In this document: one piece after another, positions 267 through 21,407 of the stretch
How positions within the stretch are numbered: the first letter of the stretch is position 1
Layout: every line of letters starts with the position of its first letter
DNA from: Baffinella frigidus
Lineage: Eukaryota > Cryptophyceae > Cryptomonadales > Baffinellaceae
DNA length: 21,407 bases
Direction: 5' to 3'
NCBI GenBank assembly: GCA_026770585.1
Contig: MU646669.1
Location: 8,792 to 30,198 of the forward strand
Made by a program: the position numbers and the translations under genes
The notes under the pieces: generated by a model
Seen by the model: the letters and a program-made list of their open reading frames with translations, nothing else
Databases searched by the model: none
Told to the model about the DNA's origin: nothing

Positions 267-3200
267 ATGGCGCTTGTCGCCCTCCGCTTCGGCTCGAAGG
301 CCGTAGTCTTTGGGAGCAGGGCCGCGACGCCGCTTCTTTCTCTGGTTCCAGCATGGCGGACGCTGGGTGGGGGATCGAGCTTCGTAGGAGCCCGAGTTGG
401 CACAGACACGCTCATGCTCTCGAGGCGACTCACTGGCTCGACAGGCGGGTCCAATGAGGGCGGACTCACTGGCTCGAGAGGCGGGTCCAATGGGGACGGG
501 AGCAAGGCAATCGACCCCAAGCCAATCGACCCCAAGCAGGTGACGTGTTGGCTCCACAAATGCGCCGACGCAGGATCACTCCTGCGGCTGCTTGAGAAGC
601 ATGCCGACAGCTTCAACCAAATCCATCTCGTGACTGCGTGGGTGGCTCTTGGAAAGATGCCAGGTGGGGGGGGAGGGGCGGAAAGTGTGGCGGTCGTCCA
701 GCGGCTTGAGGTCCTTACGAGGGCGACTATGCAAAAGATGGAGGCGAGGGGGTTGGCAAACGTTGTGCACGCGGTGGGAAAGATGGAGGGAAGAGGGGAT
801 ACGTGTGTTGATAAAGAGCTGGTGGGCGAGCTGCTGGCTCGAGCGAGGGAGACGGCGGGCGACTTCAAGCCTCAGGAAGTTGCGAACCTCATGTGGGGGG
901 TGGCCAAGATGGGCATCAAGAATCCGGATGCTGGTCTGCTGGAGGCGTTGCAGGGACGGGCGACGGCGACGGCGGGCGACTTCAAGCCTCAGGAAGTCAC
1001 GAACCTCCTCTGGGCGCTGGCCAAAATGGGCGTCAAGAATCCGGATGCGGGTCTGCTCGAGGCGATGCAGGGACGGGCGACGGCGACGGCGGGCGACTTC
1101 ATGCCTAATGCAGTCACGAACCTTCTCTGGGCGCTGGCCACAATGGGCGTCAAGACTCCGGATGCGGGTCTGCTGGAGGCGATGCAGGGACGGGCGAGGG
1201 AGATAGCGGTCGATTTCAAGCCTCAGGAAGTTGCCAACCTCATGTGGGGGCTGGCCAAGATGGGCGTCAAGAAACCCGATGCCGGCCTGCTGCAGGCGAT
1301 GCAGGGACGAGCAACGGTGACGGCGGGTGACTGCGCCCCTCAGGCCGTGGCGAACATCATGTGGGCGCTGGCCAAGATGGGCGTCAAGCCGGACGCAGGT
1401 CTGCTAACGGTCATGCAGAGCCGTGCGAGGGCAACGGCGGGCGACTTCAAGCCCCAGGAAATCGCCACCCTGATGTGGGCGCTCGCGAAGAACGTCATCA
1501 AGCCGGACTCTGTCCTGCTGGAGGCGATGCAGGGGCAGGCCAAGGCGACCGCGGGCGATTTCAACCCGCTGGGAGTGTCGAACCTCATGTGGGCGCTGGC
1601 CAAGATTGGCATCGCGCCGGATGCAGGTCGTCGCATACTTCGCCTATCCCTTAAGCGCCCACAGGGTGAATATTCACCCTTACTCGCCCATAGGCAGGTC
1701 CTAGGGCCCTACCGTAGGGCGTATGCACCTATGCTCCTATGCTGGCCAAGATTGGGACCGCGCCGGATGCAGGTCTGCCACACGAGGCTATCGATGCGAA
1801 CAGCATAAATGTCGGCTGTAAGCATTTGTGTAGTAATTTTGGTATGTTTGGTCGAATAGATGGACATGCTACACGCTTTCCGTGTAGGCACGTGACCATT
1901 CTCCCCAATTTCTCCCCCCAAAATTTAAAATTGACATTGATTCTGTTCGCATGGATAGCCTCGTGTGGTTATCCGGAGCCTCGTGTGGTTATCCGGGGAG
2001 CCCTATTTTTCTTTCATTTGATTCCAATGAAAATTCATACACGAATGATTTAGTATTACTAGTAAGAACGAATTGTGTAGTAATTTTCATTGCCATCAAA
2101 TGAAAGAAAAATAGGTTTCCCTGGATAAGGTCCACACGAGAATGCTAGAGGGGCCTATTTAAAATCAATGTCATTTTAAAAGTGGGCATTTGTGTAGTAA
2201 CTTTCGTTGATTGGTCACGTAACTAGCTATGTATTAGCCCGTCACGAGGTTGGAACACCTTATCCTGGTACACATATTTACAACCCCACATACAAATAGG
2301 ATCCTGCAGCATTCTCGAGTGGGTTGTCGTCACCCGCCCCTACCTCGCCTATAAGAAACTGCAACCCCCTAGGACCCTACAGTAGGCCTATCTAGCTCCC
2401 CACGGTGGTCCTATGGGGGGGGCAGTTTCTTATCAGCGAGGTACCCCTCCGCTGCCGAGCGAGGACGTCATTCAATTTTGGGGTTTAAAAACTTTCACCT
2501 GAATCCTAAGGGAAATGGGCTTTTTCAAATGAAAAAGCTGAGGCCCGATTCTGGCCCCAGCTTTTAAACGAACCCTGGGGTGCTTCGATAGCGGTACATG
2601 GGATACCTTGCCTGTAAGAACACCCCTTGCTCGAGGGTCGGTCGGGCATCGTGTTCTTAAAACTTCGCAGCAGTAGGTTAACTGGTAGCAGCGGAGGTTC
2701 AGTCAACCCTCTGGTCTAAATTAAAAACGCGAGATTTAGTCAACCCTCTGGTACGTAATTAAGAACACGCAGGGGTCGAATCCGTCCCGTGTTCTTAAGC
2801 CACGGGTTCTTGTACACGAGGTACCCCATGTAGCCTGTGGTGGGCGTGCAGCCTACTTCGGGTCCATAGTAATAACTATGAGAATCCACAATCCATGGTA
2901 ATAGTTACTATGAGAACCCATAACCCATAGTAATTGCTGCGACCGGCGCTCGCCCGGACTCCGAACTAAACCATCTCAGATCGCGCGATTGTATGGGTAC
3001 AGGGCTACCTCGCTCACAAGAAAGTGCCCCCCCCCCCCCTAGGGTTACCATATGGCCCTAGATATAGCTCTACTGTAGGGTCCTAGGGGCAGGCGCGTTC
3101 TGGTGAGCGAGGTCAAACTGGTCAAACTGTAGCTCCGGGCTGTGGTTGGGTACTCCTAGTTGGCTCATCCCTGGCCACTTATGGCGTGCCAAGTGGACCG

Positions 3201-4163: not shown

Positions 4164-4197
4164 GCTCGCAGGACCTTTGGGATTGGTTCCATCCCGC

Positions 4198-4307
4198 TAT
4201 GCCCTGAAGTGGCCATGCGGTCAAATTTGACCGCACAGAGATCGTAGGCAGGTCCTAGCTAGGACCTTACGGTAGGGCGTGTGCGCCTACTGGCCACTGA
4301 AGGGATA
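4198..4307. repeat. Hairpin element family B, copy 2
   Basis: It runs from TATGCCCTGAAGTGGCCA to TGGCCACTGAAGGGATA. An internal palindrome GCGGTCAAATTTGACCGC and the core CCTTACGGTAGG are present. It starts 35 bp after the OPR stop codon. Its right-hand TA is also the left-hand TA of the next family A element. Confidence 0.8.
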
Positions 4308-4426
4308 CAGGGGTACCTCGCTCATAAGAAACGCCCACCCCCCTAGGATCACCATAGGGCCCTAGGCATCGTCCTACTGTAGGGTCCTAGGTGGGGGCGG
4401 TTTCTTATGAGCGAGGCACCCCTGTA
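4306..4426. repeat. Hairpin element family A, copy 3 (nearly perfect)
   Basis: TACAGGGGTACCTCGCTCAT at the left is mirrored by ATGAGCGAGGCACCCCTGTA at the right. The arms continue into GAAACGCCC and GGGCGGTTTC and then CCTAGG cores. It would fold into one long hairpin. Ends at TA fit insertion with a 2-bp TA target duplication. Confidence 0.85.
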
Positions 4427-4501
4427 GTCGGGCACCTTGCCCTTCCGTGGAAAGACTCGGCAGAACCGCTCAAGGGCAGCCCGCAACTACGGCATAGGAG
4501 T

Positions 4502-4606: not shown

Positions 4607-4629
4607 GCGACGGAGTTCGGACGCGGTCC

Positions 4630-4748
4630 TATTTGTACTTCGCTCATAAGAAAGCCCCCCCCCCCTAGGACCACCATATGACCCTAGGCATGGGCCTACT
4701 GTAGGGTCCTAGCGGGGGGCGGTTTCTTATGAGCGAGGTACCCCTGTA
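4630..4748. repeat. Hairpin element family A, copy 4
   Basis: The left end is slightly decayed (TATTTGTACTTCGCTC). The right end is intact (GAGCGAGGTACCCCTGTA). The core CCTACTGTAGGGTCCTAG is present. Confidence 0.8.
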
Positions 4749-4789
4749 CCCTGAACCCCTCAGGCCTGAACCCCTCGGGGTTCTCGGGC

Positions 4790-5560: not shown

Positions 5561-5780
5561 TAGTTGGCTAATCCCTAGCCACTTATGGCGTGACAAGTGG
5601 ACCGCACTACAGGGGTACACCTCGCTCATAAGAAACCGCCCCACCATAGGACCCTACAGTAGGACCATGCGTAGGGCCTATGATAGTGGTCCTATGGGGG
5701 GGGGGCAGTTTCTTATGAGCGAGGTACCCCTGTAGTTGGCTAATCCCTGGCCACGTATGTCGTGACAAGTGGACCGCACT
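5561..5780. repeat. Tandem repeat N (two 47-bp units) split by a family A element
   Basis: Units at 5561-5607 and 5733-5780 both read TAGTTGGCTAATCCCT and end AAGTGGACCGCAC. The family A element at 5608-5734 lies exactly between them at a TA. Confidence 0.75.
5608..5734. repeat. Hairpin element family A, copy 7
   Basis: TACAGGGGTACACCTCGCTC to GAGCGAGGTACCCCTGTA, with the core in the same orientation as copy 5. It is inserted in the tandem repeat N. Confidence 0.85.
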
Positions 5781-5888
5781 ACAACCGGTGTGAGAGAAGG
5801 GGGCGCGAGTGTATGGAATTCGGAACGGTGTGCTGGCGTGGGTAGCTGTATTTATCAACAGCCGCAGGCCTTTTCGATCGCTGATCTC

Positions 5889-6025: not shown

Positions 6026-6033
6026 TGGCACGA

Positions 6034-6323
6034 TCAGCCCGGGAGCTGGAACTTGGAGCCCTCCTTGACCGCGACAATGTAGTAGTAGAAGAAGTCCGCG
6101 TATAGCAGCGTCTGCACCACGCCTGCGAGAGCGAGCGAAGATGTGTTAGCATATTGCTTCCTAGCAATTGCCATGGATTATGGATTCGCCTAGTAATTAT
6201 TACTATGGATTATGGATTCTGATAGTAATTATTACCATGGTGTCTGCACCACCCCTGCGCGAGCGAGCGAAGACGCGTTAGGGCTTCGCACCGCAGAGCA
6301 GTGCCTGCTTCCGTAATGAACTC

Positions 6324-6369
<46 letters not shown>

Positions 6370-7086
6370 TTCTATGTCATCTGTCTGACTGGAGGGGTGA
6401 GGGGTACCCGCGGTCCAGTCGAGGGGCTGCAAGTAGCGCGGCTCCGAGCAGTAGCGGCAGGGGTCTCAGATATCGCTTACGTTAACGCAATTCTCTCTCT
6501 CTCTCTCTCTAACACACACACACACTCCCTCTCTCTCTCTCTCTCGCACGCGCACGCTCTCTCTCTCTCTCACGCGCGCGCTCTCTCTCCCTCTCTCTAT
6601 CTCTCTCTGTCTCTCTCTCTCTCCCTCTCGCTCTCTCTCTCTCAGCGTACCCGCGGTCCAGACGAGGGGCTGCCAGTAGTGCGGCTCCGTGAAGTAGCGG
6701 TAGATCCAGTTGATCAGGTACAAGCCCCTGCTCGCCATCCCATGTCGTCAGTTGGCAAGGATAGGGCGTCAGTTGGCAAGGATAGGGCGTCAGTTGGCAA
6801 GGATAGGGCGTCAGTTGGCAGGATAGGGCGTCAGTTGGCAAGCCCCTGCCCCCGGAAGTGGATGCCATTTCAGAACTGAGGGTGAGCTTGTGCGCACTCA
6901 CACTGTCTCACTCGCTCTCACTCTCTCACTCTCTCACTCTCACAGTCTCACACAGTCTCGCTCGCTCACTCTGTCACTCTGTCACTGTCACTGTCACTGT
7001 CACTGTCACTGTCACTGTCACTGTCACTCTCTCTCTCACACACACACACTCTCTCTCTCGCACACACACTCTCTCTCTCTTTCACA

Positions 7087-7127: not shown

Positions 7128-10100
7128 TCTCTCTCACACACACACTTGTGCGCACCCGTTGCTCTCGCGCACGAACCAGGATGACTTTTCGAAACGGGGT
7201 GACTTTTCGAAATGTGCTGCGCAGAGGTGCGCACACCCCAAACCCTAACCCCCCAATCCTGAACCATAAATTCAAGAGGCTCCTTCGAACCAGGAAACCC
7301 TCGAAGGCGACCCCCCCCCCCCCCCCCCCTCTCGGAGCATCACGGATCTCCTTTCTCTACCGATGAAGGCTCTGTTTCCTCTGTCTAGATTCGTACCAGG
7401 ACACCCTTCCAGGCGATTCCTCCCTCTCCCCCTCTCTCGGTGGATCAAGGGTCTTCTTTCTCTACCGATGAAGGCATAGCTCTGCCCGAGGTTATTCTGG
7501 CCCGCCCTTAACAACTATTTAACGCCCTTAAAAATATTTGAGAGCAGCAGTATTTAAGAGCAGAACAAAAAGGCGAAAATAAAGCCTGAGGGCGAGTACA
7601 AAAAGGCGAATATAAAGCCTCAGGGCGAGCCAGAATTAAAACTCAGGCAGAGTTAGAAGGCTCTGTTTCCTCTATCGATCCAGACTGGGCTTCGAAGGGA
7701 ATTTCGACAGAAAATCCGGTCGAAACATCGGTTAACAAGATGTCTTTGCACAGAGCTGTTCTTATTTCGTACCACGCACATAAACGGACCGATAATTATT
7801 AATGATTAATTAGAACCACACAAATAAACGGAGCGATCTGCGAGAAGCCCACTGTGTGGTCATGGACATTCTTTAGCGAGCTCTGGTTCCGAGGCGAACT
7901 CGTTTTATTAGGGCTCATAGACTTTTGTATCACTCAACTCAAGGCTTAAGGGCCTATCTAGGACCTGTGTCGAGTACAATAAAGAAAAGAAAAGACCCTC
8001 TTTAGTGTTGCCCCACACGGGAGCAAATCTCACCACGCTAGAGTTCTCGTGGGGGTTTGGCTCTTTCCGAGCGCACTGTTGGGCGCCGAACTATCCCAAA
8101 AGTGAACAATTCCCCCTCATTCCTTCCGGGGAATCGACTTTTGGCAACCCCTTCCAAGATGCTGGCGTGGCAAACACCCTGGTACAAACACATGCTCCCT
8201 CCACACATGGGGACCCTCGCCGGGACCTAGGGTTCAGGGTTTCGGGTTTCGGGGGCAGGGTGTAGGGTGCAGGGTCTCATCTCAGAGAATCCTTTCTAAG
8301 ACGGGGTTCTCTCCACAACGAAATTTACTACACAAACGCTTTACTATTACTAGCATGATGAAACTGTGTAGTAAATTTTGTTGACAGAACCCCTTTATAA
8401 AAAGCTTTATTTGAGAGGAGGTTTCGCCCTATGTCCAAAACGGATTGCCTACCGTAGGGTCCTACGTCCAATCGCTAAGGGGTCATTCAAAATCCCTTCG
8501 AAGCCCGCTGTGTGGGTAGGGTGCAGGGTCTCACTACCCAGAGTCGTACATCACCAAGAGTACAACGTATCTCCTAAGTGGCCAGGCGGTCAAATTTGAC
8601 CGCCAAGAGGTCCTAGGCAGGCCCTGTGGCCATACGGTAGGACGTATGAGCCTACTCACCACTTGAGAGATAGAGTCGTATATTTCCAAGGAAACAACGT
8701 ATACCAAGATTCTTTGGGGTCGGGGTCTCACCGGCAGGCCCCCACGCAGAAGATGTCTCACTACCAAGAGTGGTATATCACCAAGTATACAACGTATACG
8801 AAGATTATTTGGGTACAGGGTCTCACTGCCCAGAGTCGTATATCACCAAGTAAACAATATATACGAAGATTATTTGAGAGGAGGTCTACCCTGGAGGCAA
8901 CTTATGGCCAAACCGATGGTTTCTGAAGTCAACTCCCATACAAAGGCGCCCGAAATCCGGGCGCATCTCAATCTCCCTGAAGAATCTTAAGTCATCTCCA
9001 CTTAAGATTTGCCCGTGGGTTCCCTCCTGGGTGGCTCACCGGTAGGCCCCTACGCAGAAGATGTCTCACTACCCAGAATAGTATATCACCAAGTATACAA
9101 CGTATACCAAGATTATTTGGGTGCAGGGTCTCACTACCCAGAGTCGTATATTTCAAAGTATACAACGTATACCAAGATTATTTGGGGTCAGGGTCTCACC
9201 GGTAGGCCCCCACGCAGAAGATGTAGAGCAGCGTGAATGCCTCGCCTGAGGGGTTTGGGGTTTAGGGTTGAGGGTTGAGGGTTTAGGGTTTAGGGTTTAG
9301 GGTACAGGGTACAGGGTTTAGGGTTGAGGGGTTGGGGGGTAGGGTTTGGGTTTGGGGTTCGGGGTTTGGGGTTTGGGGTTTGGGGGGTTTGGGGTTTGGG
9401 GGCTGGGTCTTGGGGTTTAGGGTTCAGGGTTTAAGGTTTAGGGTTTCAACCCGAAACACGAACCCCCCGAACCCGTGGGAGAAGGGGAGGGTACCCTCCT
9501 TCGTCTCGCGACCCGTCTCCTTACACCCCTACACCCCTAACCCCTAAACGATAAAATCACAACCCGAAACGCGTTGGAAGAGGGGCGGACCACTCGCTAG
9601 TCTACGGGGCACGTCCCTCCCCGGAAATCTGGGGAGGGACGTGACAGATTGCTGACTGTTGGCGTGTTTCTAAGGCAAGAATCCAATAATAAACTTAAGC
9701 ATGGTTCCTCGTAGTGTTCCGAGCGGGTACCCTCCTTCGTCTTCTATATCACGAAAATCTGCAGCAGGATTGCCACTGCCCCCACGTAGATGGAAAACGT
9801 TGAAATGCTATTCCCAAGTTGACATGCTGGGTGTGCGGTACAACCCCGTCCACGTTGGAGCGGGAAAGACCCCGGGCTCATCACATCACATTGTTGACCC
9901 CCCAACAAATTGTTGAGCCCACATAAGACTGAGGCAGAGCTAGTAAACGCATGGAACTTGTTGAGCCCACATAGACTGAGGCAGAGCGTGGAAACGCATG
10001 GGAGTTTCGGAGGAGGGGGGGGGGTACCCTCCTTGGTCTTCTGTAGCATGAAAAGCTGCCGCCGCCCCCAAGTAGATCAAACACGTTGACCGACTATTCT

Positions 10101-13100
10101 CAAGTTGACATGCTGGGTGTGCGGTACAACCCCGTCAACTTTAGAGCGGGAAAGACCCCGGGCCAACCACATTGTTGAGCCCAATAAACTGAGACAGACT
10201 TTTGAGCCGTCCTTGTCCAAGAGGCCCCGAAGCATGTCGCAGGGCTCTGCCTCACCCGGGCTGACCGACTGTTCTCAAGTGACTGATGTGGGCTCAGGCA
10301 GAGCTTGGAAACGCATGGGAGTTTCGGAGGAGGGGGGGGGGGTACCCTCCTTGGTCTTCTGTAGCATGAAAAGCTGCGGCAGGATTGCCACCGCCTCCAA
10401 ATAGATGGAAAACGCCCACAGAATCTGCCGGGTTGGGGTGCAGGGTTCAGGGTTGAGAGATCGGGGGTCCCCGCTCATGACTTGAGAGGAGAAGAGGGAG
10501 GGAGGGAGGGAGGGAGGGAGGGAGGGAGGGAGGGAGGGAGCGAGAGATATTTCCCACTCCCTCAAAGTAGATCGAAACCGCCCACATAATCTGCCGAGGC
10601 GGGCTCGTCGTAAGACGCATAGACTTTTGGATCACTCATCTCCAGGCTTGAGAGAATAAAGCAGAAGAACCTGAAGAAGCAGAAGAAGAGGAAGAAGGAA
10701 GACACAATTTGCCGGGAGATATCGGGGGTCCCCGCTCATAACTCAAGAGAAGCAACTTGCTTCAGAGAGAGAGAGAGAGCCCTCTATTAATTGGCAATAA
10801 AGTCTTGATTACTGCCAACACGGCCGCCATGTATGCCCTCTCTCTCTCCCCCCCCCCACCCTCCCCTCCCCCAGCCTGCCGGCGGGGCCCGCTCGTGGGT
10901 TCGAGGCCACAAGACGCCTTTGCCAGGGGCAAAAAGAGGCCGTTCACGAGCCTGCCGACGGGCCCCATAAGAGCCCCCGCCGGCGCTCCTTCCTTCCTGT
11001 CGAGTCCCAGGAAAGATCTTTCGAAAGATCCCAGGAAAGATCTTTCGAATTCCGGAATTCGAATTTCGGAACAGGACAGCATCTGGCCCGCTTTTCAAGG
11101 CTGGCAATTTGTCACGTCCCTCCCCAGATTTCCGCCACAGATAGATATGCTATTTAGGGCATGAAACGAAGGCTTCGCATAGCATGCATTAGGACAGATT
11201 CTGGTATGTTCCGAGATGAAATCGAATTCAGAGAGTTTAGCATGAATTAGGACAGATTCTGGTATGTTCCGAGATGAAATCGAATTCAGAGAGTTGAGGG
11301 TGGAGATACCTTCCCGGTGCAAAGGCCTCCCGGTTTAGTCAACGGGTTTTCGGTTTAGTCAACACTCCCTCGGTTTAGTCAGCAGTCCTTCAGTTTAGTC
11401 AACACTCTTTCGGTTTGCAAAGGCTTCTCGGCTTAGTCATCGGTCCTTCGACCGCTGTCGAGCGAAAGAAGCACGTTTTTAAAAGCCAGGTCCAGATTCT
11501 GGACCTGGCTTTTTTCATCTTAAAAGTCCATCTCTTTGAGGATGCAGGGGAAAGTTTTTGAAATCCTTTAAAATTGTGTCCCGTCCTCACTCGGCAGCGG
11601 TTAGTCAACAGTCCTTCGAGGGAGACTCAAAGGGCTCAAAGCCCTCGTTGCAGACGACCCCTTAAGTTAATTTTTCGGGTGCGTGGTACACATCCGTCAA
11701 CTTTCGGCGATGAGGAAACACGCCTCGAAAGGCTAGCAACCCTCGTCCCACAAGATTCCTTAGGTTGATTTTTCGGGTACAGAATTCCGTCAACCGGCGA
11801 GACTAATCTCGGAACGTAACAGAATCTGTTGATCAAGTACAATCATCTAAGCCTCGGTTTTATGCCTAAAATAGCATATCCACTCTTACCCAAGCGCTGG
11901 AAGCCTCAAAAGATACACCACAGATTCTGTTATGTTCCGAAATGAAAACGCTCCTCGCAAGGCTCGTAACCATTGTTCCACACGAGAGCGTTCCACACGA
12001 CCCCTCAAGTTGATTTCTCGGATTTGTAGTACAAATCCGTCAACTTGGTTCAGTTACGCTTTCCACGGGTCAGATGGCGAACACACGATTTCTCGTTCCA
12101 CACGATCCCTTAAGTTGATTTCTCGCAAGACAAATCCGGCAACTTTCGGCGGATCAAACCTCGAAAGGCTCATAACCCTCGTTCCACACGAGGGAGAGGA
12201 GGAGGCACGGGAGGATGATGAAGCCCAGCACCCCGTGCGGCGGGAAGTGCCCAAAGAACGACCCATCCTGCATCAGGGTTTGTTTCAGCAACCAATCGAA
12301 ACTTTTACTGAAATTAAAAGGGGTTCAGGATTTTACTGTCGGTATTTTTTTAGATTGCTTTTGGGCAACGCAAATTACTACACAGGTGGATCATACGAGT
12401 GACAGTAAAACTTTTGGGTGGGAATTTTCGCTGTCCCAACAGCAAATGATCAATGATTTTGCTGACATTAGGTTATGCACCCCATGACCACGTGCGGCGG
12501 GGAATGCCCAAAAACCGACCCATCCTGAATTAAACTTGATGGCTTATGTTTTTCATTATCATTCGGGTTTAGGGTTTAGGGTGCATGGTGTAGGGTGCAG
12601 GGTGCAGGGTTTAGAGTGTAGGGTTTAGGGTTCAGGGTGTATGGGTCAGGGTTGTAGGTTTGCCCCATGAAACTTGTCGTTTTCAAGGTCTTATGAGGTC
12701 TTGTTTTTGGGGGTTGGGTTGAAGGTTTACGGTTCAGGGTGCAGGGTCCAGGGTTCGCGGTGCAAGGTCCGCTCAAAAGGCTACGTGTCACCTCTTCCCC
12801 GGATATCCGGGGATAACGTGACCAACCATTGCCGACGTTAGGCGTGTTTCCTAATTAAAAATGCAATAATTAACTTTGGAACGTTCCCTGAAGTGTTCTG
12901 AGTGGCCGCCAAGGTCCACTTAGTGGACACACGGAGCCAGGAATGAGCCGTGGAGGTGTTAGGGTTTACCTCGTGGAACTTGTCGTTCTCAAGGTCTGAT
13001 TGGGTTAACGGTTTACGGTTTACGGTCCAAGGTTCAGGGGTCAGGGTGCAGGGTTCAGGGTTCAGGGTTCAGGGTTTAGGGGTACGGGTTTGCCGTTCAG

Positions 13101-15745
13101 GGTTCAGGGTTCGCGGTTCAGGGTTTGGGGTTTAGGGTTTAGGGTTTAGGGTTTAGGGTTTGGGGTTTAGGGTTTAGGGTTTAGGGTTTAGGGTTTAGGG
13201 TTTAGGGGTGAGCGTTTACCCCGTGGAACTTATCGTTCTCAAGGTCGTAGGAGGTCTTGTATTTCTCGAGGATCCAGTAGACGGTTGTCGCCGTAGCGCT
13301 GATGAACAAGACCTGGTCAGGGGTTCGGGGTTTGGGGTTTAGGGTTTAGGGTTTGGGGATGATTGGAAAACATCCTGATGATGAACACGACCTGGTGTGG
13401 GGTTTGGAGTTTAGGGTTTGGGGTTTAGGGTCTAGGGTTTAAGGTTTAGGGTTTATGGTTTAGGGTTTAAGGTTTGGGGGGTGGGGTTTAGGGTTTAGGG
13501 TTTAGGGTTTAGGGTTTAGGGTTTAGGGTTTGAGGTTTAGGGTGTGGGGTTTGGGGATGATGCAGCACACCTGCTGAGCTCGTGCAGGGGATGCGGGTTG
13601 AGGTTTTGAGGGTTGAGGCTGTAGGATTAGGGGCTGGAAGCTAGGGTTCAGGGTTTAGGGTTCAAGGTTCGGGGGTTAGGATTGAGGCGTCGAGAGGTTG
13701 GGGGTTAGATCCGGGGTTCAGGTTGAGGGGTCGGGGGTTCAGGGTTTCGAGTTCAAAAGAGGGGGGTTGGGGGCGGCACCTTCATGAGGGTGTTGTAGAT
13801 CGAAATGAAGGAGAAGAAGAGATCCAAGTACCGGCAACTGCCCGGCAAGGTTTGGGGGTTAGGGTTTAGGTTAGGGTTTCGGGTAACCCCAAACAACTCC
13901 AGATTCGTATTGATCAACCACTTAGCAGCCACCGCGGTCTTCACGGATGCAGTCCATCTAAATGATTTGTACTAGAATCTTATCCATTGCTATGGATTCC
14001 AATCGGAAATTTTCCCGAGAATCCGGGGGAAAATATCTTCGGTCGCCGCTAAGTGGCCAGTGGCCCATCCGGGGGGGGGGGCACACGAGAATGCTAAAGG
14101 AACCTATTGAAAATCGTTGGCTTTTACAAGTGGGCATGTGTGTAGGAACGTTCGTGAGTTTGGTCACGTTCCTGACTCGAACGGAGTCAGGCACGTCACC
14201 AACCCGCCCGTGACTGGTACAAATCTTTACAATCCCACATGTAAATAGGATCATCCAGCATTCTCGAGTGGGGCAGGGTCAGCGGCAACGTACCCACAGG
14301 AAAACCTCCCCCTTCTGAATGCTTTACAAAATTCGGCTGGAAGGGGATCCTCCCAAGGACCTTTGTTTGAAAAACGAACCCTTCTGGATACTGTAGAAAA
14401 ACGAACTCTCACTGCTTTTCATGAGGCCGGGGAGGGATCCTCGAAGAACCCTTGGTGGTGGGGAATCAGAGTCGGTACGGCGTTTGGGGTTTAGGGTTTA
14501 GGGTTTAGGGTTTAGGGTTTAGGGTTTAGGGTTTAGGGTTTAGGGTTTAGGGTTTAGCTAGTCGAAGCCTAACCCCCATCCTCCTCCCGGGAATTGGAGC
14601 CGTTCGCTGAATCTTCGAGGTGGAAGGCATACCCTTCAACCCCTCAACCCTCAACCCTAAACACATACCCCCTCTCGAGGTTGTTGCAGCTCTGATCTGT
14701 CGACAGGGGTGGGAGCTTCGGGCAAGAGTTTAGGGTTGGGGGTTCGGGTTTTGGGTTTTGGGTTTCGGGGTTTGGGGTTTGGGGTTTGGTGTTTGGTGTT
14801 TGGTGTTTGGCGTTTGGGGTGCAGGGTTCAGGGGTTCAGGGGTGAGGGGTTAGGGGTTTGGAGTTTAGGGGGTTAGGGGTCAGTGCGGGGTTTAAGGGGT
14901 TGGGGTTTGGTGTCAGCCTGTCAGGGGGACAGGGGTCGGGGGTTTGGGGTTGAAGGGGTTGAGGGGTTAGGGGTTGAGGGCTCTGGGGTGAAGAGTTGGT
15001 GTGGAAAGGATCCAGCAGCCGCTCTCGTGACCTGTTTATGTCGCAAATTTTGTAATGGGAATCAGTAACGCCTTAGATGGCTCCACCCAATCGGTTCGAT
15101 CTTGGTTGGTACCTGAAGACGATGAGGAAGAGGAGCTGCGTCTTGAGTGAAACCTGCCGCAGGGGACAGCGCGGCACGTCAACCAGCGCGCTCCCCAGCA
15201 GCATCCCGCTCGCCGCGTGGAGGATGCGGTGGGCGTCGCTTTCCAGCTGGAATCCCTCCGGATCCTCGTCAGGGGTTCGCGGCTCGAGGAGCGAGTTTAT
15301 TTTGGTTTGTTCAGAGGCGGGAGGTGTGAGGGGGAGCGGAGGAGCCTCGCTCAGCGGTTCAGCAAACGATGTGAGTGGGGGCGTGCACAGACGAGGAGGA
15401 CCATGGGTCTCAGCCCTGTGAGAGAGCGCTCTCGGGGAAGGGCGGCGCTAAATGGAGGTAGGACGAAATGGATTTGGCGGGGTGCGCCACGGCAGCTCCG
15501 CAGGAAATGCGTGCACGAGAAGGAGATAGCTTCTAGAGACGCGGACGCTGGGGTGAATTGGCTGATCTGGGGGACTCTGCTGCGGGGATTCGCGAGCCGT
15601 AGAACCCCCCTGGCGGCGCGATGTGAGGGGTTTGGAAGGCGGGAAGGCACACCCCGCGGCAGGATCGCTGCGAGCGCATGCGGAAGAGCAAGACGAAGAA
15701 CGAGAGCAGGTGGAGCATGTCCGCTGAGAAGCGGAAGATGTTCAT
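6034..15745 (-). CDS. ERD2: ER lumen protein-retaining receptor (KDEL receptor), 9 exons
   Basis: This seven-helix Golgi/ER membrane receptor binds C-terminal KDEL-type signals of escaped ER proteins and returns them by COPI vesicles (family knowledge). Exons on the complement: 15653-15745, 15113-15153, 13780-13837, 13220-13312, 12160-12267, 10346-10424, 9200-9245, 6651-6727, 6034-6122. The total is 684 bases, 227 residues plus TGA; typical family length is 210-220. All eight introns are GT-AG and all phases match. Family motifs appear in order: MNIFRF, RSCRGVSLKTQ, RYLDLFFSFISIYNTLMK, LPCLLLSL, EILWAFSIYLEAVAILPQLF, AYRGLYLINWIYRYF, GVVQTLLYADFFYYY, and a C-terminus ending KFQLPG. Key residues are kept: Arg5, His12, Arg47 and Asp50 at the human numbering, and Glu141, Tyr172, Tyr176, Trp180 and Arg183 at human plus 14. 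The offset comes from about 14 extra residues at the exon 4/5 junction. The start ATG is the family start. Only about 7% of the gene is coding. It is transcribed away from gene 3 (start 16223) and converges with the OPR gene. Confidence 0.95.
6164..6240. repeat. Copy of the ATGGATTATGGATT repeat in ERD2 intron 8
   Basis: Two units reading TAGTAATTATTACTATGG and ATTATGGATTC are the reverse of the minisatellite in OPR intron 2. They sit between exon 9 and the copy of its 5' edge at 6241, and so probably were inserted or expanded within a duplicated junction. Confidence 0.65.
6241..6290 (-). pseudogene. Copy of the 5' edge of ERD2 exon 9 with acceptor and intron flank
   Basis: On the minus strand the bases GCGCAG|GGGTGGTGCAGA repeat the true junction CTCGCAG|GCGTGGTGCAGA (6111-6130). 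The intron flank GCGAGCGAAGA is also repeated. It lies upstream of the real exon 9, as the other 5' edge copies do. Confidence 0.75.
6327..6365. repeat. CT microsatellite
   Basis: Pure CT dinucleotides on the + strand in ERD2 intron 8. Confidence 0.95.
6408..6460 (-). pseudogene. Copy of the 3' edge of ERD2 exon 8 with donor
   Basis: It matches 6651-6700 closely: in frame it reads EPRYLQPLDWTA where exon 8 reads EPHYWQPLVWTA. The donor G|GTACCC stands at the same place. The match fades toward the exon 5' side. His to Arg, Trp to Leu and Val to Asp changes suggest decay. Confidence 0.85.
6491..6644. repeat. CT, CA and CG dinucleotide microsatellites
   Basis: Mixed CT, CACA and CGCG runs in ERD2 intron 8, ending 7 bp before the exon 8 donor. 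Confidence 0.9.
6747..6842. repeat. 21-bp tandem repeat, about 4.5 units
   Basis: The unit GTCAGTTGGCAAGGATAGGG plus C is repeated four times; the fourth lacks one A. A partial fifth unit ends in AAGCCCCTG, the same word as at the exon 8 acceptor (6722-6730), so this too may be a duplicated junction. Confidence 0.9.
6899..7147. repeat. CT, CTGTCA and CA microsatellites in ERD2 intron 7
   Basis: It includes a CACTGT hexamer run at about 6973-7028, CT runs and CACA runs. Reading frames through it are artefacts. Confidence 0.92.
7275..7478. repeat. Tandem duplication of about 105 bp, with a C run
   Basis: Two units share TCTCTACCGATGAAGGC and the words ACCAGGA.ACCCTTC and CTCTCGG. The first holds a run of about 22 C (7310-7329). 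The start of a third unit (GAAGGCTCTGTTTCCTCTA) follows the family C element at about 7657. Confidence 0.7.
7492..7650. repeat. Inverted-repeat element family C, copy 2
   Basis: CTGCCCGAGGTTATTCTGGC at the left and GCCAGAATTAAAACTCAGGC at the right match the ends of copy 1 (3622-3730). The interior has an AAAAGGCGAATATAAAGCC word repeated twice. It splits the 105-bp tandem repeat. Confidence 0.75.
7651..8032. other. Non-coding part of ERD2 intron 7
   Basis: No exon or strong repeat is seen. The word CATAGACTTTTG.ATCACTCA at about 7917-7936 recurs at 10618-10638 in intron 5. Confidence 0.4.
8033..8170. repeat. Inverted-repeat element family M, copy 1
   Basis: It matches the reverse complement of 18478-18615 along its length (shared words CTCTTTCCGAGCGCACT and CCTTCCGGGGAAT) and has CCACGC and GCGTGG ends. 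Confidence 0.8.
8317..8383. repeat. Small foldback with the TGTGTAGTAAATTT word
   Basis: CAACGAAATTTACTACACA at the left is mirrored by TGTGTAGTAAATTTTGTTG at the right around about 28 bp. Confidence 0.7.
8568..8672. repeat. Hairpin element family B, copy 4
   Basis: TATCTCCTAAGTGGCCAGG to ACCACTTGAGAGATA, with the palindrome GCGGTCAAATTTGACCGC. It is inserted in the TATACAACGTATAC minisatellite at a TA. Confidence 0.8.
8732..8754 (-). pseudogene. Copy of the 3' edge of ERD2 exon 7 with donor
   Basis: On the minus strand ATCTTCTGCGTGGGGGCC is followed by TGCCG|GTGAGACC; the true exon has TACCG|GTGAGACC (9200). Tyr becomes Cys. Confidence 0.85.
9040..9062 (-). pseudogene. Second copy of the 3' edge of ERD2 exon 7 with donor
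   Basis: On the minus strand ATCTTCTGCGTAGGGGCC and TACCG|GTGAGCC; one synonymous change against the true exon. The exon 5' half is absent. Confidence 0.85.
9246..9450. repeat. TTTAGGG-like satellite upstream of ERD2 exon 7
   Basis: Degenerate GGGTTTAGGG and GGGTTTGGGG units on the + strand. On the ERD2 sense strand this is a C-rich tract running into the acceptor CCCCTCAG. Confidence 0.9.
9495..9506 (-). pseudogene. Short copy of the 3' end of ERD2 exon 6 with donor
   Basis: Minus strand GACGAAGGAGG|GTACCC matches the exon 6 end ACCAAGGAGG|GTACCC. Only about 12 bases match, but it continues the spacing of the larger copies. Confidence 0.5.
9610..9645. repeat. Foldback CACGTCCCTCCCC
   Basis: CACGTCCCTCCCC is mirrored by GGGGAGGGACGTG around GGAAATCT. 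A decayed relative is at 12784-12822, and both precede the shared word GCGTGTTTC. A single arm occurs at 11113-11126. Confidence 0.7.
9731..9806 (-). pseudogene. Tandem copy of ERD2 exon 6 (decayed)
   Basis: In frame it reads FSIYVGAVAILLQIFVI then a stop, where exon 6 reads FSIYLEAVAILPQLFMLQ. KTKEG and the donor G|GTACCC follow. The key Glu is Gly here. It is part of a roughly 300-bp tandem array with 10028-10087 and the true exon. Confidence 0.88.
10028..10087 (-). pseudogene. Tandem copy of ERD2 exon 6 with internal deletion
   Basis: The 3' half (GCTTTTCATGCTACAGAAGA and the donor) is identical to exon 6, but several bases are missing within the SIYLEAVAILP segment, which shifts the frame. 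Confidence 0.88.
10495..10540. repeat. GGGA tetranucleotide repeat
   Basis: About ten AGGG units in ERD2 intron 5. It joins directly onto the exon 6 5' edge copy. Confidence 0.92.
10548..10590 (-). pseudogene. Copy of the 5' edge of ERD2 exon 6 with acceptor
   Basis: Minus strand CGGCAG|ATTATGTGGGCGG reads IMWAVSIYFEG where exon 6 reads ILWAFSIYLEA. It lies upstream of the real exon and runs into the GGGA repeat. Confidence 0.85.
10640..11180. other. Non-coding part of ERD2 intron 5
   Basis: It has a GAAGAAG-rich stretch at 10662-10700, a GA run at 10766-10780, a C-rich tract at 10840-10875, and a palindromic block at 11007-11060 built from AAAGATCTTTCGAAAGATC and CGAATTCCGGAATTCG. Long reading frames on both strands show no family features. 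Confidence 0.5.
11182..11297. repeat. Tandem duplication of a 58-bp unit
   Basis: Two nearly identical units contain AGGACAGATTCTGGTATG and TTCCGAGATGAAATCGAATT. A partial relative, ACAGATTCTGTTATGTTCCG, is at 11923-11942. Confidence 0.92.
11327..11450. repeat. Minisatellite CGGTTTAGTCAACACTC
   Basis: About six imperfect units of 20-24 bp of the form CGGTTTAGTCAACACTC.CTT. Confidence 0.88.
11478..11514. repeat. Foldback AAAAGCCAGGTCCAG
   Basis: AAAAGCCAGGTCCAG is mirrored by CTGGACCTGGCTTTT. It looks like a bacterial terminator but lies in a eukaryotic intron, so it is listed only as a hairpin. Confidence 0.8.
11630..11663 (-). pseudogene. Copy of the 3' edge of ERD2 exon 5 (VCNEGFEPFE)
   Basis: In frame it reads VVCNEGFEPFE where exon 5 reads LVWNEGYEPFE. 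Several changes are silent. The donor GAG|GT is lost (GAG|TCTCCC). Confidence 0.75.
11725..11752 (-). pseudogene. Copy of the 3' edge of ERD2 exon 5 with a deletion and a stop
   Basis: Minus strand GACGAGGGTTGCTAGCCTTTCGAG, 11725-11748, against AACGAGGGTTATGAGCCTTTCGAG in exon 5. A small deletion lies before it and a TAG in frame. Confidence 0.7.
11945..11982 (-). pseudogene. Copy of the 3' edge of ERD2 exon 5 (VWNNGYEPCE)
   Basis: It reads VWNNGYEPCE against VWNEGYEPFE. The bases after the exon end (GAGCG) do not keep a GT donor. Confidence 0.75.
12478..12524 (-). pseudogene. Copy of the 5' edge of ERD2 exon 5 with acceptor
   Basis: Minus strand ATTCAG|GATGGGTCGG reads DGSVFGHSPPHVVMG where exon 5 reads DGSFFGHFPPHGVLG, and meets a stop soon after. 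It lies upstream of the true exon. Confidence 0.85.
12568..12760. repeat. TTTAGGG-like satellite with an embedded exon 4 edge
   Basis: GGGTTTAGGGT and GGGTGCAGGGT units on the + strand in ERD2 intron 4, interrupted by the exon 4 copy at 12664-12709. Confidence 0.85.
12664..12709 (-). pseudogene. Copy of the 3' edge of ERD2 exon 4, GC donor
   Basis: It reads KTS, stop, DLENDKFHG against KTSYDLENDKFHG. The donor is GCAAAC instead of GTAAAC. Confidence 0.85.
12970..12999 (-). pseudogene. Second copy of the 3' edge of ERD2 exon 4 with donor
   Basis: It reads LENDKFHE followed by the donor GTAAAC, against LENDKFHG|GTAAAC in the true exon. Only about 28 bases match. Confidence 0.85.
13010..13208. 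repeat. TTTAGGG-like satellite in ERD2 intron 4
   Basis: GGGTTCAGGG units grade into clean TTTAGGG units (13125-13205), ending 11 bp before the exon 4 donor. Confidence 0.9.
13320..13560. repeat. TTTAGGG satellite in ERD2 intron 3 with possible exon 4 5' edges
   Basis: The array directly precedes exon 4 in transcription order. At 13374-13391 the minus strand reads ACCAG|GTCGTGTTCATCAT, like the exon 4 start ACCAG|GTCTTGTTCATCAG. A weaker match is at 13556-13576. Confidence 0.8.
13600..13885. repeat. Degenerate TTTAGGG-like satellite around ERD2 exon 3
   Basis: GGGTTCAGGG and GGGGTTAGG units flank the 58-bp exon 3 (13780-13837) on both sides. Confidence 0.75.
14082..14272. repeat. Inverted-repeat element family L, copy 3
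   Basis: It runs from CACACGAGAATGCTAAAGG to AGCATTCTCGAGTGG, with interior GTGGGCATGTGTGTAGGAAC and CCACATGTAAATAGGAT as in the other copies. It lies in ERD2 intron 2. Confidence 0.85.
14484..14557. repeat. Pure TTTAGGG array
   Basis: About ten uninterrupted TTTAGGG units, the cleanest telomere-like tract in the window, inside ERD2 intron 2. Confidence 0.95.
14720..15000. repeat. Degenerate GGGTTTGGGG satellite in ERD2 intron 2
   Basis: GGGTTTCGGGG, GTTTGGTGTTTGG and GGGGTTGAGGGG units on the + strand. Confidence 0.85.
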
Positions 15746-19200: not shown

Positions 19201-21407
19201 TAAATTTCGTAGAGCTCGTTGCTGATTAGTTGACACCTTTGTTGGTCCGCAAAACTTCCAAACTTCCAAACTCTTTTAGTCAACTCGTATGAAGTCTACC
19301 ACAGCGAAATTCATGCTGTAGTAAATTTCAGGTGAGTTGACTAAAAGAGTTTGGAAGTTTAGAAGTTTTTCGACCCCCCAAAAAAGTGTCAACTAATCAG
19401 CAACGCGCTCTACCGGGAATTCAGAAATGGCTCCCAAAAAGTAATTCCTTCGCTACACACCAAAGCGATCCACGGCTGAACACTTCACCTACGAAGGTGG
19501 GGAGGAAGCGGTGCGTCGCAAGGCCGCGCGGAAACCGAAGCCTCGAAGGCGAGACCCGCCGCACTGGGTCTGCGAGATCATGTGAGACCGAAATCCAGAA
19601 CCCGAAACCCGGAACCCGAAATCCGGAACCCGAATCCCAAAATCTGAAATCCGAAACTGAGCCGCACTGGGTCTGCGAGATCATGTGAGCCCGAAATCCA
19701 GAACCCGAAACCCGGAACCCGGAATCCGGAACCCGAGACTCGGAACCCGGAAACCGAAATCCGGAAACCGAAGCCTCGAAGGCGAGACCCGCCGCACTGG
19801 GTGTGCGAGATCATGTGAGACCGAAACCCGAAACCCAGAAACCGAAACCCACGACCGGAAACCCGAAACCCGAGGCCCGAAACCGAGCCGCACTGGGTGT
19901 GCGAGATCATGTGAGCCCTGCACCCCAAATCCGAAGCCCGAAATCCGGAAGCCGAAATTCGAAACCCGTAACCGGAAATCCGGAACCCGAATCCCAAAAT
20001 CTGAAATCCGATACTGAGCCGCACTGGGTCTGCGAGATCATGTGAGCCCGAAATCCGGAACCCGAAACCCGGAACCGGGAACCCGAAATTCGGAACCCGA
20101 AACCCGAAACACGAAATTCGGAACCCGAAGCCCTGGACCGAGCCGCACTGGATGTGAGAGAGCATGTTCGAGTCATGACAGCACACCCGAAACCAGAAAC
20201 TAGAAACCCGAAACCCGAAACCCGAATCCCAGAACTCGAAACCCGAAACCCGAAACCCTAAACCCTAAGCCCCAAACCTCAAACAATCGGGTTTCGGGGT
20301 CCGGGGTTCGGGTTCAATAAACGTGTCTCCTTCACTAGGCAATGGCTGCACGTGATGCTGATCATCAAGTTGATCGTAAAACCCACGGAAACTTCGGTAG
20401 TTTCTCCTACCGCATTGCCTAGGACCTCCTACCGTAGGCCAAAATCCTAGGACGTTTTGGTCCTAGGAGCCCTACGGCCTACGGTAGGTAGGTCCTACCT
20501 AAATCCGTAGAGAAACTACCGAACTTTCCGTGGGTTTCCCAATTAAAGTTGATCGTCTACCGCAAAAGAGCCTGGGCTCACCAAACTGGTGAGCCCAAAT
20601 AGACTGAGACAGAGGTAGGCGGTACCCAAGAAACCCCCAACCCTCAACCCTCAACCCTCTCCCTCTTCCTCTCTCTCTCTCCCTCTCTCTCCAGGCAATG
20701 GCTGCACGTGATGCTGATCCTCAAGTTCCTCTTCTACCTCTACCTCGACGGCTGGAAGACATCGGCCCTCGCCCTCGCCTTCTGCTTCGTCGGGTAACAA
20801 ACCCGTATCACCAACCGCATCCACATCCTGAACCCACCTCTTGAACCATAAACCATAAACCATTAACCATTAACCATTAGCCATGAACCATGAACCATAA
20901 ACCATGAACCATAAACCATAAACCAAAAATGGAAGACCTCGGCGCTCGCCCTCGCTTTCTGTTTCGTCGGGTCAGCCCCCCATTGCCTACTATCCACGCA
21001 GGGCTGGAGGGGGGGGTATTCAAAAGTCATTTTTGATGGGAAAACTTTGTCAAAGGTGGATTTTTAGCACAAAAACGGCTCCAAGAACGAGCACACGGCT
21101 CCAAGAACGAGCACGGAATACCCCACCCAAGGTCCTGGAGTGGGTACAACACACACACACACGATGTGCGCATGGTAACCTAAACCGTAATCCCTGAACC
21201 CCAAACCCTAAACCCTAAACCTTAAACCCTAAACACAAAACCCTAAACCCTAAACCCTAAACCCTAAACCCCAAACCCCAAACCCTAAACCCCAAACCCC
21301 AAACCCTAAACACTAAACCCGAACCCCTTACCCCTAAACCCTAAACCCCACACCCCAAACCCCACACCCTAAACCCTCAACAGGGGGCAGTACTGGCTGG
21401 ACCGTTT
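16223..21407 (+). CDS. Unidentified membrane protein gene, partial; at least 4 exons
   Basis: I do not recognise this gene. Proposed exons are 16223-16436, 17220-17271, 20695-20793 and 21384 to beyond the window. Each has GT-AG borders and the phases fit at every join. The start has a good context (GCCATGG). Exon 1 (71 codons) is rich in Gly, Lys, Glu and Arg and ends YADLFRELEGIEARRRGET. Exon 2 follows a strong pyrimidine tract (TTTTTTCCCGCAG) and reads AHLEAHYAKRLSRIRELR, helical and coiled-coil-like. Exon 3 reads QWLHVMLILKFLFYLYLDGW and then KTSALALAFCFVG, one or two membrane segments. The last part reads GQYWLDRF. This suggests a cytosolic N-terminus followed by membrane helices. A further exon ending at 19581 (HWVCEI) would also fit in phase between exons 2 and 3. 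It is divergent from ERD2. The hydrophobic exon is the most secure part; the link from exon 1 to exon 3 is inferred from phase. Confidence 0.55.
16475..16620. repeat. CCCTAAA-like satellite in gene 3 intron 1
   Basis: CCTGAACCCTAAACC and CAACCCCTAGCCCC units. The C-rich strand is now on the + strand, opposite to nearly all arrays in ERD2. Confidence 0.88.
16652..16811. repeat. Inverted-repeat element with CACACAGCGGGCTACGAAGG ends
   Basis: The left end is mirrored by CCCTTTGTAGTCCGCTGTGTG. The inside holds a palindrome GACCTACCGTAGGTACC. A single related end is at 8496-8517. Confidence 0.75.
16843..17020. repeat. Inverted-repeat element with CCACTAGCCCT ends
   Basis: GTACCACTAGCCCTGGGAGG and AGTGCTCTGGAAC are mirrored by GTTCCAGAGCACC and AAGGGCTAGTGGTA. 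An inner palindrome CACCCCAGATCTGGGGTG is present. Confidence 0.8.
17026..17176. repeat. Long foldback ending just before gene 3 exon 2
   Basis: CCCGATTGGACCAAATCATC is mirrored by GACGATTTGGTCCAATCGTG. The arms continue to TTTACCCTTGCAGAGACC and GGTCCCTGCAAGGGTAAA, so nearly the whole 150 bp folds. It ends 43 bp before the exon 2 acceptor. Confidence 0.85.
17410..18066 (+). pseudogene. Inverted broken copy of the ERD2 promoter and exon 1
   Basis: Reading along +, 17410-17744 resembles the ERD2 upstream region read on -: AAGAGGCCACTTTAG and TTGGCC..CTCTCGG..GTTCAGTCAACTG are shared. The ATG at 17745 is followed by a 27-base foldback insertion. Then come AACATCTTCCGTTTC, a TAA stop (17790-17792), and ADMLHLLSFF. 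A 211-bp element (17822-18032) interrupts it, and the rest (FVLLF.MRSQR) resumes at 18033. Stop and insertions make it non-functional. It lies inside intron 2 of gene 3. Confidence 0.9.
17822..18032. repeat. Inverted-repeat element related to family L, inserted in the ERD2 exon 1 copy
   Basis: Ends are CCACTCGAGGCT and AGCCTCGAGTGG. The empty site is known from the true exon 1 (CTCTCGTTCTTCGTCC), which gives a target duplication of 2-3 bases (TT or TTC). The interior has GCATTTTAAATGTGGGG and TTGGTCACGTAGC as in family L. Confidence 0.88.
18090..18335. repeat. Repeats of GGTCGGACGACCCTACAGTA and TAGGGACCTAGGGATTT
   Basis: Three or four units end in CGACCCTACGATAGCAC. They are followed by four TAGGGACCTAGGGATTT units. 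The words belong to the same CCTAGG / CCTAC.GTAGG vocabulary as the hairpin elements. Confidence 0.75.
18478..18615. repeat. Inverted-repeat element family M, copy 2
   Basis: CCACGCCAGATTCTTGG to GGAATCTGGCGTGG. Reverse complement of the 8033-8170 copy. Confidence 0.82.
18744..19096. repeat. Large inverted-repeat element with a hairpin inside
   Basis: AGGCCGTGGTCAGATAGC plus GAGGGGGCAAAT is mirrored by GTTTGCCCCCTCGCTATC and CACGGCCT. Inside, 18779-18934 is a second long hairpin whose arms read GAAAATGGGGTTGTTAGGC and GCCTAACTACCCCATTTTC, with a GCCTAGGACCTCCTACC core. Confidence 0.8.
19210..19412. repeat. Inverted-repeat element with TAGAGC ends
   Basis: TAGAGCTCGTTGCTGATTAG is mirrored by CTAATCAGCAACGCGCTCTA. 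Further in, TTCCAAACTCTTTTAGTCAA is mirrored by TTGACTAAAAGAGTTTGGAA. TA ends and the TAGAGC start resemble the element at 4912-5117. Confidence 0.85.
19444..19581 (+). CDS. Possible exon of gene 3 ending in HWVCEI
   Basis: An open frame of 46 codons runs to a good donor (ATCAT|GTGAGA) and would join gene 3 exon 3 in phase. It reads TAEHFTYEGGEEAVRRKAA and then RKPKPRRRDPPHWVCEI, a basic stretch and then a hydrophobic patch. I cannot place its acceptor; a stop lies in frame at 19441. Its 3' edge is copied at least four times downstream, which in this window is a habit of real exons. Confidence 0.35.
19577..20280. repeat. CCGAAACCC satellite with recurring exon-edge units
   Basis: CCCGAAACCCGGAACCCGAA-type sequence is interrupted by GCCGCACTGGGT.TGCGAG plus ATCATGTGAG at about 19660, 19790, 19888, 20018 and, decayed, 20140. 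Spacing alternates between about 100 and 130 bp. The long shadow frames here (FGFRISG and similar) are repeat artefacts. Confidence 0.85.
20339..20377 (+). pseudogene. Copy of the 5' edge of gene 3 exon 3 with acceptor
   Basis: CTAG|GCAATGGCTGCACGTG and on to GATGCTGATCATCAAGTTGA, against CCAG|GCAATGG... at 20693. It reads QWLHVMLIIKLIV; the true exon reads QWLHVMLILKFLF. A hairpin element cuts it at 20378 and it resumes briefly at 20557. Confidence 0.88.
20378..20545. repeat. Hairpin element in the exon 3 copy, with an 11-bp flanking repeat
   Basis: CCCACGGAAACTTCGGTAGT is mirrored by ACTACCGAACTTTCCGTGGG. The core repeats GCCTAGGACCTCCTACCGTA, as in 18779-18934. AAGTTGATCGT flanks both sides (20367-20377 and 20546-20556). 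A target duplication of this size would fit Mutator-like elements, but the right end carries eight extra bases. Confidence 0.7.
20845..20928. repeat. ACCATAA / ACCATGA heptamer array
   Basis: Twelve or so 7-bp units ACCATAA, ACCATTA or ACCATGA, a 7-bp array resembling a drifted CCCTAAA repeat. Confidence 0.9.
20930..20970 (+). pseudogene. Copy of the 3' edge of gene 3 exon 3 with donor
   Basis: These 41 bases match 20753-20793 with four differences, all silent; both read WKTSALALAFCFV. The donor is GTCAGC instead of GTAACA. Upstream is a CCATAAACCATGAA repeat, with no acceptor next to it. Confidence 0.88.
21180..21380. repeat. CCCTAAA satellite running into gene 3 exon 4 acceptor
   Basis: CCCTAAA and CCCCAAA units on the + strand end at CCCTCAACAG, the acceptor proposed for the last visible exon (21384). 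Confidence 0.92.

Follow-up and report, generated by a model that had tools for sequence, protein, structure and literature searches.

Why should exons be accompanied in the neighbouring introns by partial copies of their own edges, each on one predictable side of the exon? The question is raised by a stretch of 21,407 nucleotides from Baffinella frigidus (contig MU646669.1, positions 8,792 to 30,198), referred to here as the window. A preliminary description, made from the letters alone, had stated that in three genes of the window copies of 3' exon edges lie downstream and copies of 5' exon edges upstream of the exon, and had proposed tandem duplication across exon-intron junctions as their source.

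The ERD2 (KDEL receptor) gene of the window is encoded on the minus strand and has nine exons, and all of its introns are of the GT-AG type. The translation of the joined exons is identical to the transcript-derived protein P0001 in 227 of 227 amino acids, and P0001 contains every exon once and no decoy copy. The protein belongs to Pfam family PF00810 (E 5.6e-54). In a protein search the top three matches bear MMETSP transcript names, and the fifth match is from Rhodomonas sp. CCMP768 (taxid 302021), a cryptophyte, with 82% identity over 74% of the query. The exons, delimited by the agreement of the joined exons with P0001, are:

15653..15745, minus strand: exon 1, no in-place copy
15113..15153, minus strand: exon 2, no local copy
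13780..13837, minus strand: exon 3, no local copy
13220..13312, minus strand: exon 4
12160..12267, minus strand: exon 5
10346..10424, minus strand: exon 6
9200..9245, minus strand: exon 7
6651..6727, minus strand: exon 8
6034..6122, minus strand: exon 9, including the stop codon

Fifteen edge copies (E-values from 1e-20 to 0.015) were recovered in this gene, all of them direct and all within the intron adjoining their exon. The eleven 3'-edge copies are downstream (two each for exons 4, 6 and 7, four for exon 5 and one for exon 8), and the four 5'-edge copies, which belong to exons 4, 5, 6 and 9, are upstream:

13379..13411, minus strand: 5' edge of exon 4 with AG, upstream (85%, E 7e-6)
12954..12996, minus strand: 3' edge of exon 4 with GT, downstream (88%, E 3e-11)
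12658..12708, minus strand: 3' edge of exon 4 with GC at the donor, downstream (84%, E 8e-12)
12475..12530, minus strand: 5' edge of exon 5 with AG, upstream (82%, E 9e-12)
12092..12105, minus strand: weak 14-nt copy of the 3' part of exon 5, downstream (100% over 14 nt, E 0.015)
11953..11986, minus strand: 3' edge of exon 5 with GA at the donor position, downstream (88%)
11698..11755, minus strand: 3' edge of exon 5 with TT at the donor position, downstream (78%)
11626..11657, minus strand: 3' edge of exon 5, downstream (81%)
10551..10596, minus strand: 5' edge of exon 6 with AG, upstream (83%)
10025..10062, minus strand: 3' edge of exon 6 with GT, downstream (97%)
9728..9799, minus strand: 3' part of exon 6 with GT, downstream (86%, E 1e-20)
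9035..9064, minus strand: 3' edge of exon 7 with GT, downstream (97%; spacer duplicated past the copy)
8713..8756, minus strand: 3' edge of exon 7 with GT, downstream (95%)
6404..6460, minus strand: 3' part of exon 8 with GT, downstream (89%, E 7e-18)
6242..6273, minus strand: 5' edge of exon 9 with AG, upstream (94%)

The copy at 10025..10062 belongs to units of about 300 bp (9725-10062 and 10022-10380, 71%, self-BLAST). As the preliminary description had expected, the copies add intron length and extra splice-site-like sequences: AG is retained in all four acceptor-spanning copies and GT in six of the nine donor-spanning ones (GC and GT for exon 4, GA and TT for exon 5, GT in the other five). 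No local copy of exons 1 to 3 was found at E < 0.05; the single weak match of exon 2 (E 0.007), which lies 4.4 kb away, looks like chance. All 15 in-place copies thus obey the geometry and are direct. A large copy of exon 1 breaks the rule, but it is dispersed and inverted, and the rule had been limited to in-place copies. This copy repeats the start of the gene (exon 1 and upstream sequence, 15665-16062) in inverted orientation within 17408-18065, about 2 kb away, at 73% identity and in a divergent arrangement, and an element with inverted-repeat ends (about 17823-18032) interrupts this copy.

The protein P0103 of a relative, predicted on environmental contigs, spans ERD2 exons 3-6 uninterrupted, which suggests that the introns between these exons are absent in its source. 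A scan of viral contigs with P0103 yielded no intronless ERD2 locus, and tblastn of P0001 against plasmids gave no match.

Similar structures are present elsewhere in the window. In the following list, X-spacer-X denotes two direct copies of a sequence X around a spacer:

1595..1629, plus strand: 3' edge of exon 1 of a predicted OPR-type gene (self-BLAST)
1630..1740, plus strand: spacer behind this exon, a member of a dispersed repeat family (its positions ~14-102 match elsewhere)
1741..1775, plus strand: downstream copy of the 3' edge of this exon (94%, self-BLAST)
5561..5783, plus strand: X-spacer-X away from recognised exons, a 51-bp direct repeat (5561-5611, 5733-5783) with a 121-bp hairpin element (5612-5732) between
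20337..20371, plus strand: 5' edge copy with acceptor, upstream of the gene 3 exon (97%, against 20693-20727)
20693..20795, plus strand: predicted exon of gene 3, its exon 3 in the preliminary description (self-BLAST)
20930..20972, plus strand: downstream copy of the 3' edge of this exon (91%, against 20753-20795)

Every copy that had been listed in the three genes was found by self-BLAST, for ERD2 with the final gene model, including the 5' copy of ERD2 exon 4 that had been named with a "perhaps". The spacer at 1630..1740 occurs in at least 40 other places (the best 40 of 864 candidates were scored). The predicted OPR-type gene, whose name stems from the preliminary description, matches Pfam DUF1601 and FAST_1, and the predicted 34-aa exon of gene 3 has no Pfam family match. 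Both introns of the OPR-type gene (1625-4087) interrupt protein repeat units that have intronless siblings, so that the corresponding intron-free sites can be read from neighbouring units; of 20 positions, 10 agree between the ends of intron 1 and 12 between those of intron 2 (cross-pair mean 6.6, 95th percentile 10), which is suggestive of a diverged direct repeat at the ends of intron 2 only. A roughly 120-bp hairpin repeat, which resembles a mariner-type MITE in its ends and the flanking TA, is present many times (2341-2448, 2995-3113, 4303-4426, 4635-4914, 5265-5389, 5606-5736). Many degenerate arrays of heptamers similar to TTTAGGG/CCCTAAA or CCCGAAA are also present in the window (9251-9446, 12565-12658, 13002-13218, 14482-14557, 19588-20278, 21179-21381).

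The geometry was then scored across the host assembly (382 Mb, 1364 contigs). To locate exons of conserved families, Pfam models were searched against the host genome (PF00118, 14 matches; PF00069, 150; PF00071, 37; PF00225, 83; PF00227, 12; PF00004, 17; PF00063, 9; PF00270, 36), and sequence was fetched for part of the matches. Ten of the 83 kinesin matches were removed beforehand as decoys, each having a better match to the same part of the model on the same contig, which left 73. The 110 exons examined comprised 51 of these 73 (from 20 of 58 planned stretches), the best 30 of 150 kinase matches by E-value, 12 of 14 TCP1 and four of 37 Ras matches, the nine ERD2 exons (whose borders deviated by a few bases from the final model), the gene 3 exon and three exons of one kinase gene that was picked because its match list already showed decoys. 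Matches within 1.5 kb at E < 1e-3 were counted as copies.

Among these exons there were 53 partial 3' copies downstream, 60 partial 5' copies upstream and a single exception, C23:404695, where a 5' part is copied downstream. Direct matches numbered 117 and inverted ones four; three direct matches stand outside the tally, two inside a stop-containing kinesin match and one a copy of a whole exon. Outside the window, 98 of 99 partial direct copies, at 30 of 31 exons on 13 contigs, obeyed the geometry (93 of 94 without the kinase gene chosen for its decoys). The claim of a genome-wide recurrence was thereby borne out, and an equal distribution of copies over the two sides was not seen. Of the 38 copy-bearing exons, 18 have copies on both sides. 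Identity of the copies ranges from 68% to 100%.

Any local match was found for 37 of 67 exons of up to 180 bp (kinesin 24/39, ERD2 6/9, TCP1 4/10, the chosen kinase 1/3, Ras 0/4, gene 3 1/1, other kinase 1/1). Such matches are scarce in longer exons (kinesin 2/12, kinase 1/29, TCP1 1/2), in part because a family match may stop short of the exon edge. Copies are also absent from some kinesin stretches with short exons (C834). The long-exon kinesin genes on C82, C131, C942 and C62 (L048, L050, L051, L053) have no edge copies, unlike most short-exon kinesins, and two gene classes, with and without edge copies, may coexist. The match lists beyond the fetched stretches agree with this picture in part: the DEAD list shows two partial matches upstream of the best exon on C309 and one downstream on C989, the nine myosin matches include no decoys, the AAA list contains a weak pair on C97 (model positions 1-31 and 1-26; E 0.4 and 0.8) whose fit to the rule is doubtful, and two kinase matches on C612 share the same part of the model.

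A genome rich in repeats invites assembly errors, and the copies could in principle be an artefact of this kind. The copies differ from each other in sequence and flanks, though, and are present on 13 other contigs, one of them of 2.1 Mb; moreover, an assembler is blind to the rule that they obey. We give this explanation practically no credence.

The exon-to-flank alignments, scored for side and strand, were compared with 240 random segments of exon-matched lengths from the kinesin and ERD2 sequences, taken away from known exons. Local direct copies were found for 118 of the 240 segments and for 29 of 48 short exons (p 0.21). The positions of the copies differed, with 232 consistent and 260 inconsistent for random segments versus 89:1 for exons (Fisher p 8e-25). 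Because random segments are copied almost as often as exons but without order, local duplication is common throughout these introns, and the ordered placement is a property of real exons.

In a simulation, insertions flanked by direct repeats were placed at random and rejected if an exon was broken or fully duplicated. Consistent and wrong copies numbered 31:0 for exons and 85:84 for pseudo-exons; summed over 12 parameter sets, they were 315 and 3 for exons and 634 and 618 for pseudo-exons. The rejection of exon-breaking events thus reproduces the geometry, so that selection for the intact exon suffices to explain it. A process aimed at exon edges is not required, since random intron segments are copied nearly as often and selection creates the order; the ordered placement itself stood. 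The ratio of copy frequencies between exons and pseudo-exons was 1.23 in the observed data and 0.36-1.09 in the simulations, with no parameter set reaching 1.23; six of the 12 sets gave 0.9-1.1, of which five started from short introns and the sixth combined long introns with the highest mutation rate. In a rotation test on 11 intron-rich sources, which had been selected after exon copies had been seen, contacts between duplicated pairs and exons were 2.0-2.8 times as frequent as in the rotated controls. In the 10 other sources two pairs touched exons versus about nine expected, and the pooled excess was 1.5- to 2.1-fold. Exon edges as special targets were rejected, because the frequency in pseudo-exons is comparable (p 0.21) and the positive rotation test used a post hoc group; a modest excess at exon edges may exist but is not claimed.

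The same control bears on the idea that the copies are retained for a function, for example as decoy splice sites or exon-definition signals. The splice dinucleotides that ERD2 copies often keep would agree with it, but the identity of the copies spreads from 68% to 100%, the donor is gone in two copies of exon 5, and like duplications exist in introns outside the neighbourhood of known exons. We consider such a function highly improbable.

What kind of event produced the copies was read from the spacers between exon and copy. The events are mixed: plain tandem duplications form the minority, and X-spacer-X is the commoner structure. The nearest copies at 55 exon sides were adjacent (within 10 bp) at four, and the quartiles of spacer length were 86, 134 and 181 bp. 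At least half of the spacer was duplicated beyond the copy in eight of the 50 spacers longer than 40 bp, at least one fifth in 17 and less in 33. When farther array members are included, four of 114 copies lie within 10 bp of the exon, and none of the 16 with at least 95% identity. The middle half of the copies measures 37-83 bp, with the 5th and 95th percentiles at 20 and 167 bp.

These figures bear directly on ordinary tandem duplication, by slippage, unequal exchange or filler-free fill-in of staggered breaks, with subsequent loss or decay of one spacer copy. The geometry is a direct consequence of tandem duplication, and tandem units are real: arrays are present at ERD2 exons 6 and 7 and at C123 exon 70647, and 12 of the 55 exon sides are tandem-like, with an adjacent copy or a spacer at least half duplicated. 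To this extent the original proposal stood; the remaining sides have an unduplicated spacer. Young copies weigh against it as the general explanation, because six of the nine nearest copies with 94-100% identity lack a spacer duplicate beyond the copy (three are tandem-like). Likewise, only 12% of 32 local pairs of at least 95% identity (22 sources, median repeat 43 bp) are tandem; strongly periodic pairs had been filtered from this set, and some pairs were counted double where stretches overlap (L046/L047, L054/L055, L060/L061). Tandem duplication with later loss is thus, in our judgement, unlikely to be the main source, although it retains some weight.

The content of the spacers was compared with random segments. 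Relatives at other fetched loci were found for 29 of 76 spacers and 86 of 228 random segments, so that there is no enrichment in dispersed repeats, and 47 of the 76 had no match at other fetched loci (~300 kb covered). Spacers that consist of one dispersed element from end to end are in excess (9/76 vs 8/304 random segments, p 0.002) and make up seven of the 24 youngest nearest pairs (at least 94% identity); two or three of the nine elements are partly of low complexity, and some are clipped at the junction. The hairpin structure at 5561-5783, exon 1 of the OPR-type gene with its 35-bp repeats and a kinesin exon on C123 exemplify such spacers. Telomere-like heptamers were rejected as the usual filler, since strong 7-periodicity was found in 6.3% of 143 spacers versus 15.5% of 715 random segments.

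One of the spacers raises the possibility of template switching. In a kinesin gene (C123), 61-bp repeats surround a palindromic piece of 134 bp, which recurs complete or nearly so at dozens of loci on both strands (at least 82 rows; the best 40 of 853 candidates were scored). This element ends abruptly where the exon copy starts and has a short match in common with the exon, as would be expected if replication stalled within or next to a palindromic repeat, returned to a short matching sequence in the exon and copied the exon edge anew (an MMBIR/FoSTeS-like process). Repeated switching would also fit the multi-copy arrays and the short nested copies. A single backward jump, however, should duplicate the spacer as well, which is true for a minority only, and many template-switching events are expected to give inverted copies, of which there are just four against 117 direct ones. 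We therefore hold template switching to be a rather improbable general source. Templated insertion by polymerase theta likewise leaves local copies in both orientations, unlike the near-exclusively direct copies counted here.

The end-to-end elements could also point to a family of mobile elements with unusually long target-site duplications, in an introner-like invasion, and the nine filled spacers speak in its favour. Against it, the repeats have no fixed length (20-167 bp between the 5th and 95th percentiles), unlike the fixed short target-site duplications of transposons, the spacers include several distinct elements, and 47 of the 76 are unmatched in the fetched ~300 kb. The copies also differ from introners in that these 47 spacers are unrelated to the fetched loci, the ends of the ERD2 introns are unmatched and the repeats lie inside introns. 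A single invading family is very unlikely. An origin of the introns themselves in the same events was discarded, because the ends of all eight ERD2 introns match within the 95% range of the cross-pairs, with no match beyond this control.

We favour, with moderate confidence, the reading that the introns were enlarged by insertions that duplicated their flanks, probably at staggered breaks, and that were filtered by selection for the whole exon. Many insertions would each have left X-insert-X, with X mostly tens of bases long. The likely source would be the repair of staggered double-strand breaks, in which the overhangs were filled in on both sides and filler DNA, sometimes pieces of the hairpin repeat elements, was captured between them. 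Where X lay over an exon end, the exon would use whichever copy adjoins the rest of it, and the second copy would stay in the intron together with its splice-site sequence. Selection would remove events inside an exon or those that break it, so that copies of 5' edges would survive upstream and copies of 3' edges downstream. From the observed copies, their geometry and direct orientation, the mostly unduplicated spacers, the surplus of spacers that are exactly one dispersed element and the decoy-free transcript-derived protein, we infer staggered-break repair, the order of events and the action of selection as a filter. In this reading the spacer would be the insert, and either of the two copies may be the new one.

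Similar duplications have been attributed to repair in other organisms. Patch-mediated double-strand-break repair in rice (Vaughn and Bennetzen 2014) reportedly produces local direct duplications from two offset single-strand breaks and fill-in. The local direct duplications are alike; most copies reported here flank an unduplicated insert of tens to hundreds of bases. We know of no report of such duplications in the context of exons with an edge-copy geometry, and a literature search, largely without subscription journals, turned up no account of intronic exon-edge copies with such a directionality.

In Daphnia pulex, new introns are lengthened by the repair of staggered double-strand breaks with repeated insertions, which leave direct repeats within the intron and at its ends; internal repeats are present in 55 of 90 new introns versus 100 of 617 established ones, and repeats shared with the exon measure 4-12 bp (PMC4202315). 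Compared with these figures, the repeats reported here are longer (middle half 37-83 bp), have a wide range of identities and touch 37 of 67 short exons (counting any local match), and, unlike the 4-12 bp repeats, the copies include exon edges with splice sites. On this comparison, the process is best read as a long-repeat, high-frequency variant of that in new Daphnia introns. The fill-in of 3' overhangs has experimental support as an origin of small tandem duplications (PMC8355091). In mammals, telomeric repeat arrays are inserted at breaks, with target duplications at six of 130 rodent and four of 25 primate loci (PMC2246262); unlike these insertions, the spacers reported here are not enriched in heptamer arrays. 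Introners are small elements that create introns, some of them MITE-like, with duplications of 3-9 bp where present (PMC9860276); here, longer and variable repeats surround differing spacers inside introns. Direct repeats of 4-30 bp at intron borders have been taken as traces of insertion (PMC11782384); these compare the two ends of one intron, and the ERD2 intron ends have no match beyond the control.

Lengthening of introns is usually visible solely through transposons or after its traces have faded, whereas the traces described here are long, numerous and of many ages. Because the exon edges mark the position of each event, intron growth could be measured event by event. The decoys also provide a natural test of how the spliceosome chooses the true site among near-identical ones. 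Gene finders would encounter many false partial exons in such genomes, and protein-family searches already report some of them as separate matches. It is possible, although we put this forward only tentatively, that the nuclear genome of this cryptophyte is subject to an ongoing, genome-wide process of repair or transposition that copies tens of flanking bases with every insertion. If so, a large share of its short exons are enclosed by arrays that partially copy the exon's own edges and contain seemingly functional splice sites, which would impose a heavy load on splice-site choice and would represent a distinct mode of intron growth, possibly linked to an unusual end-processing enzyme.
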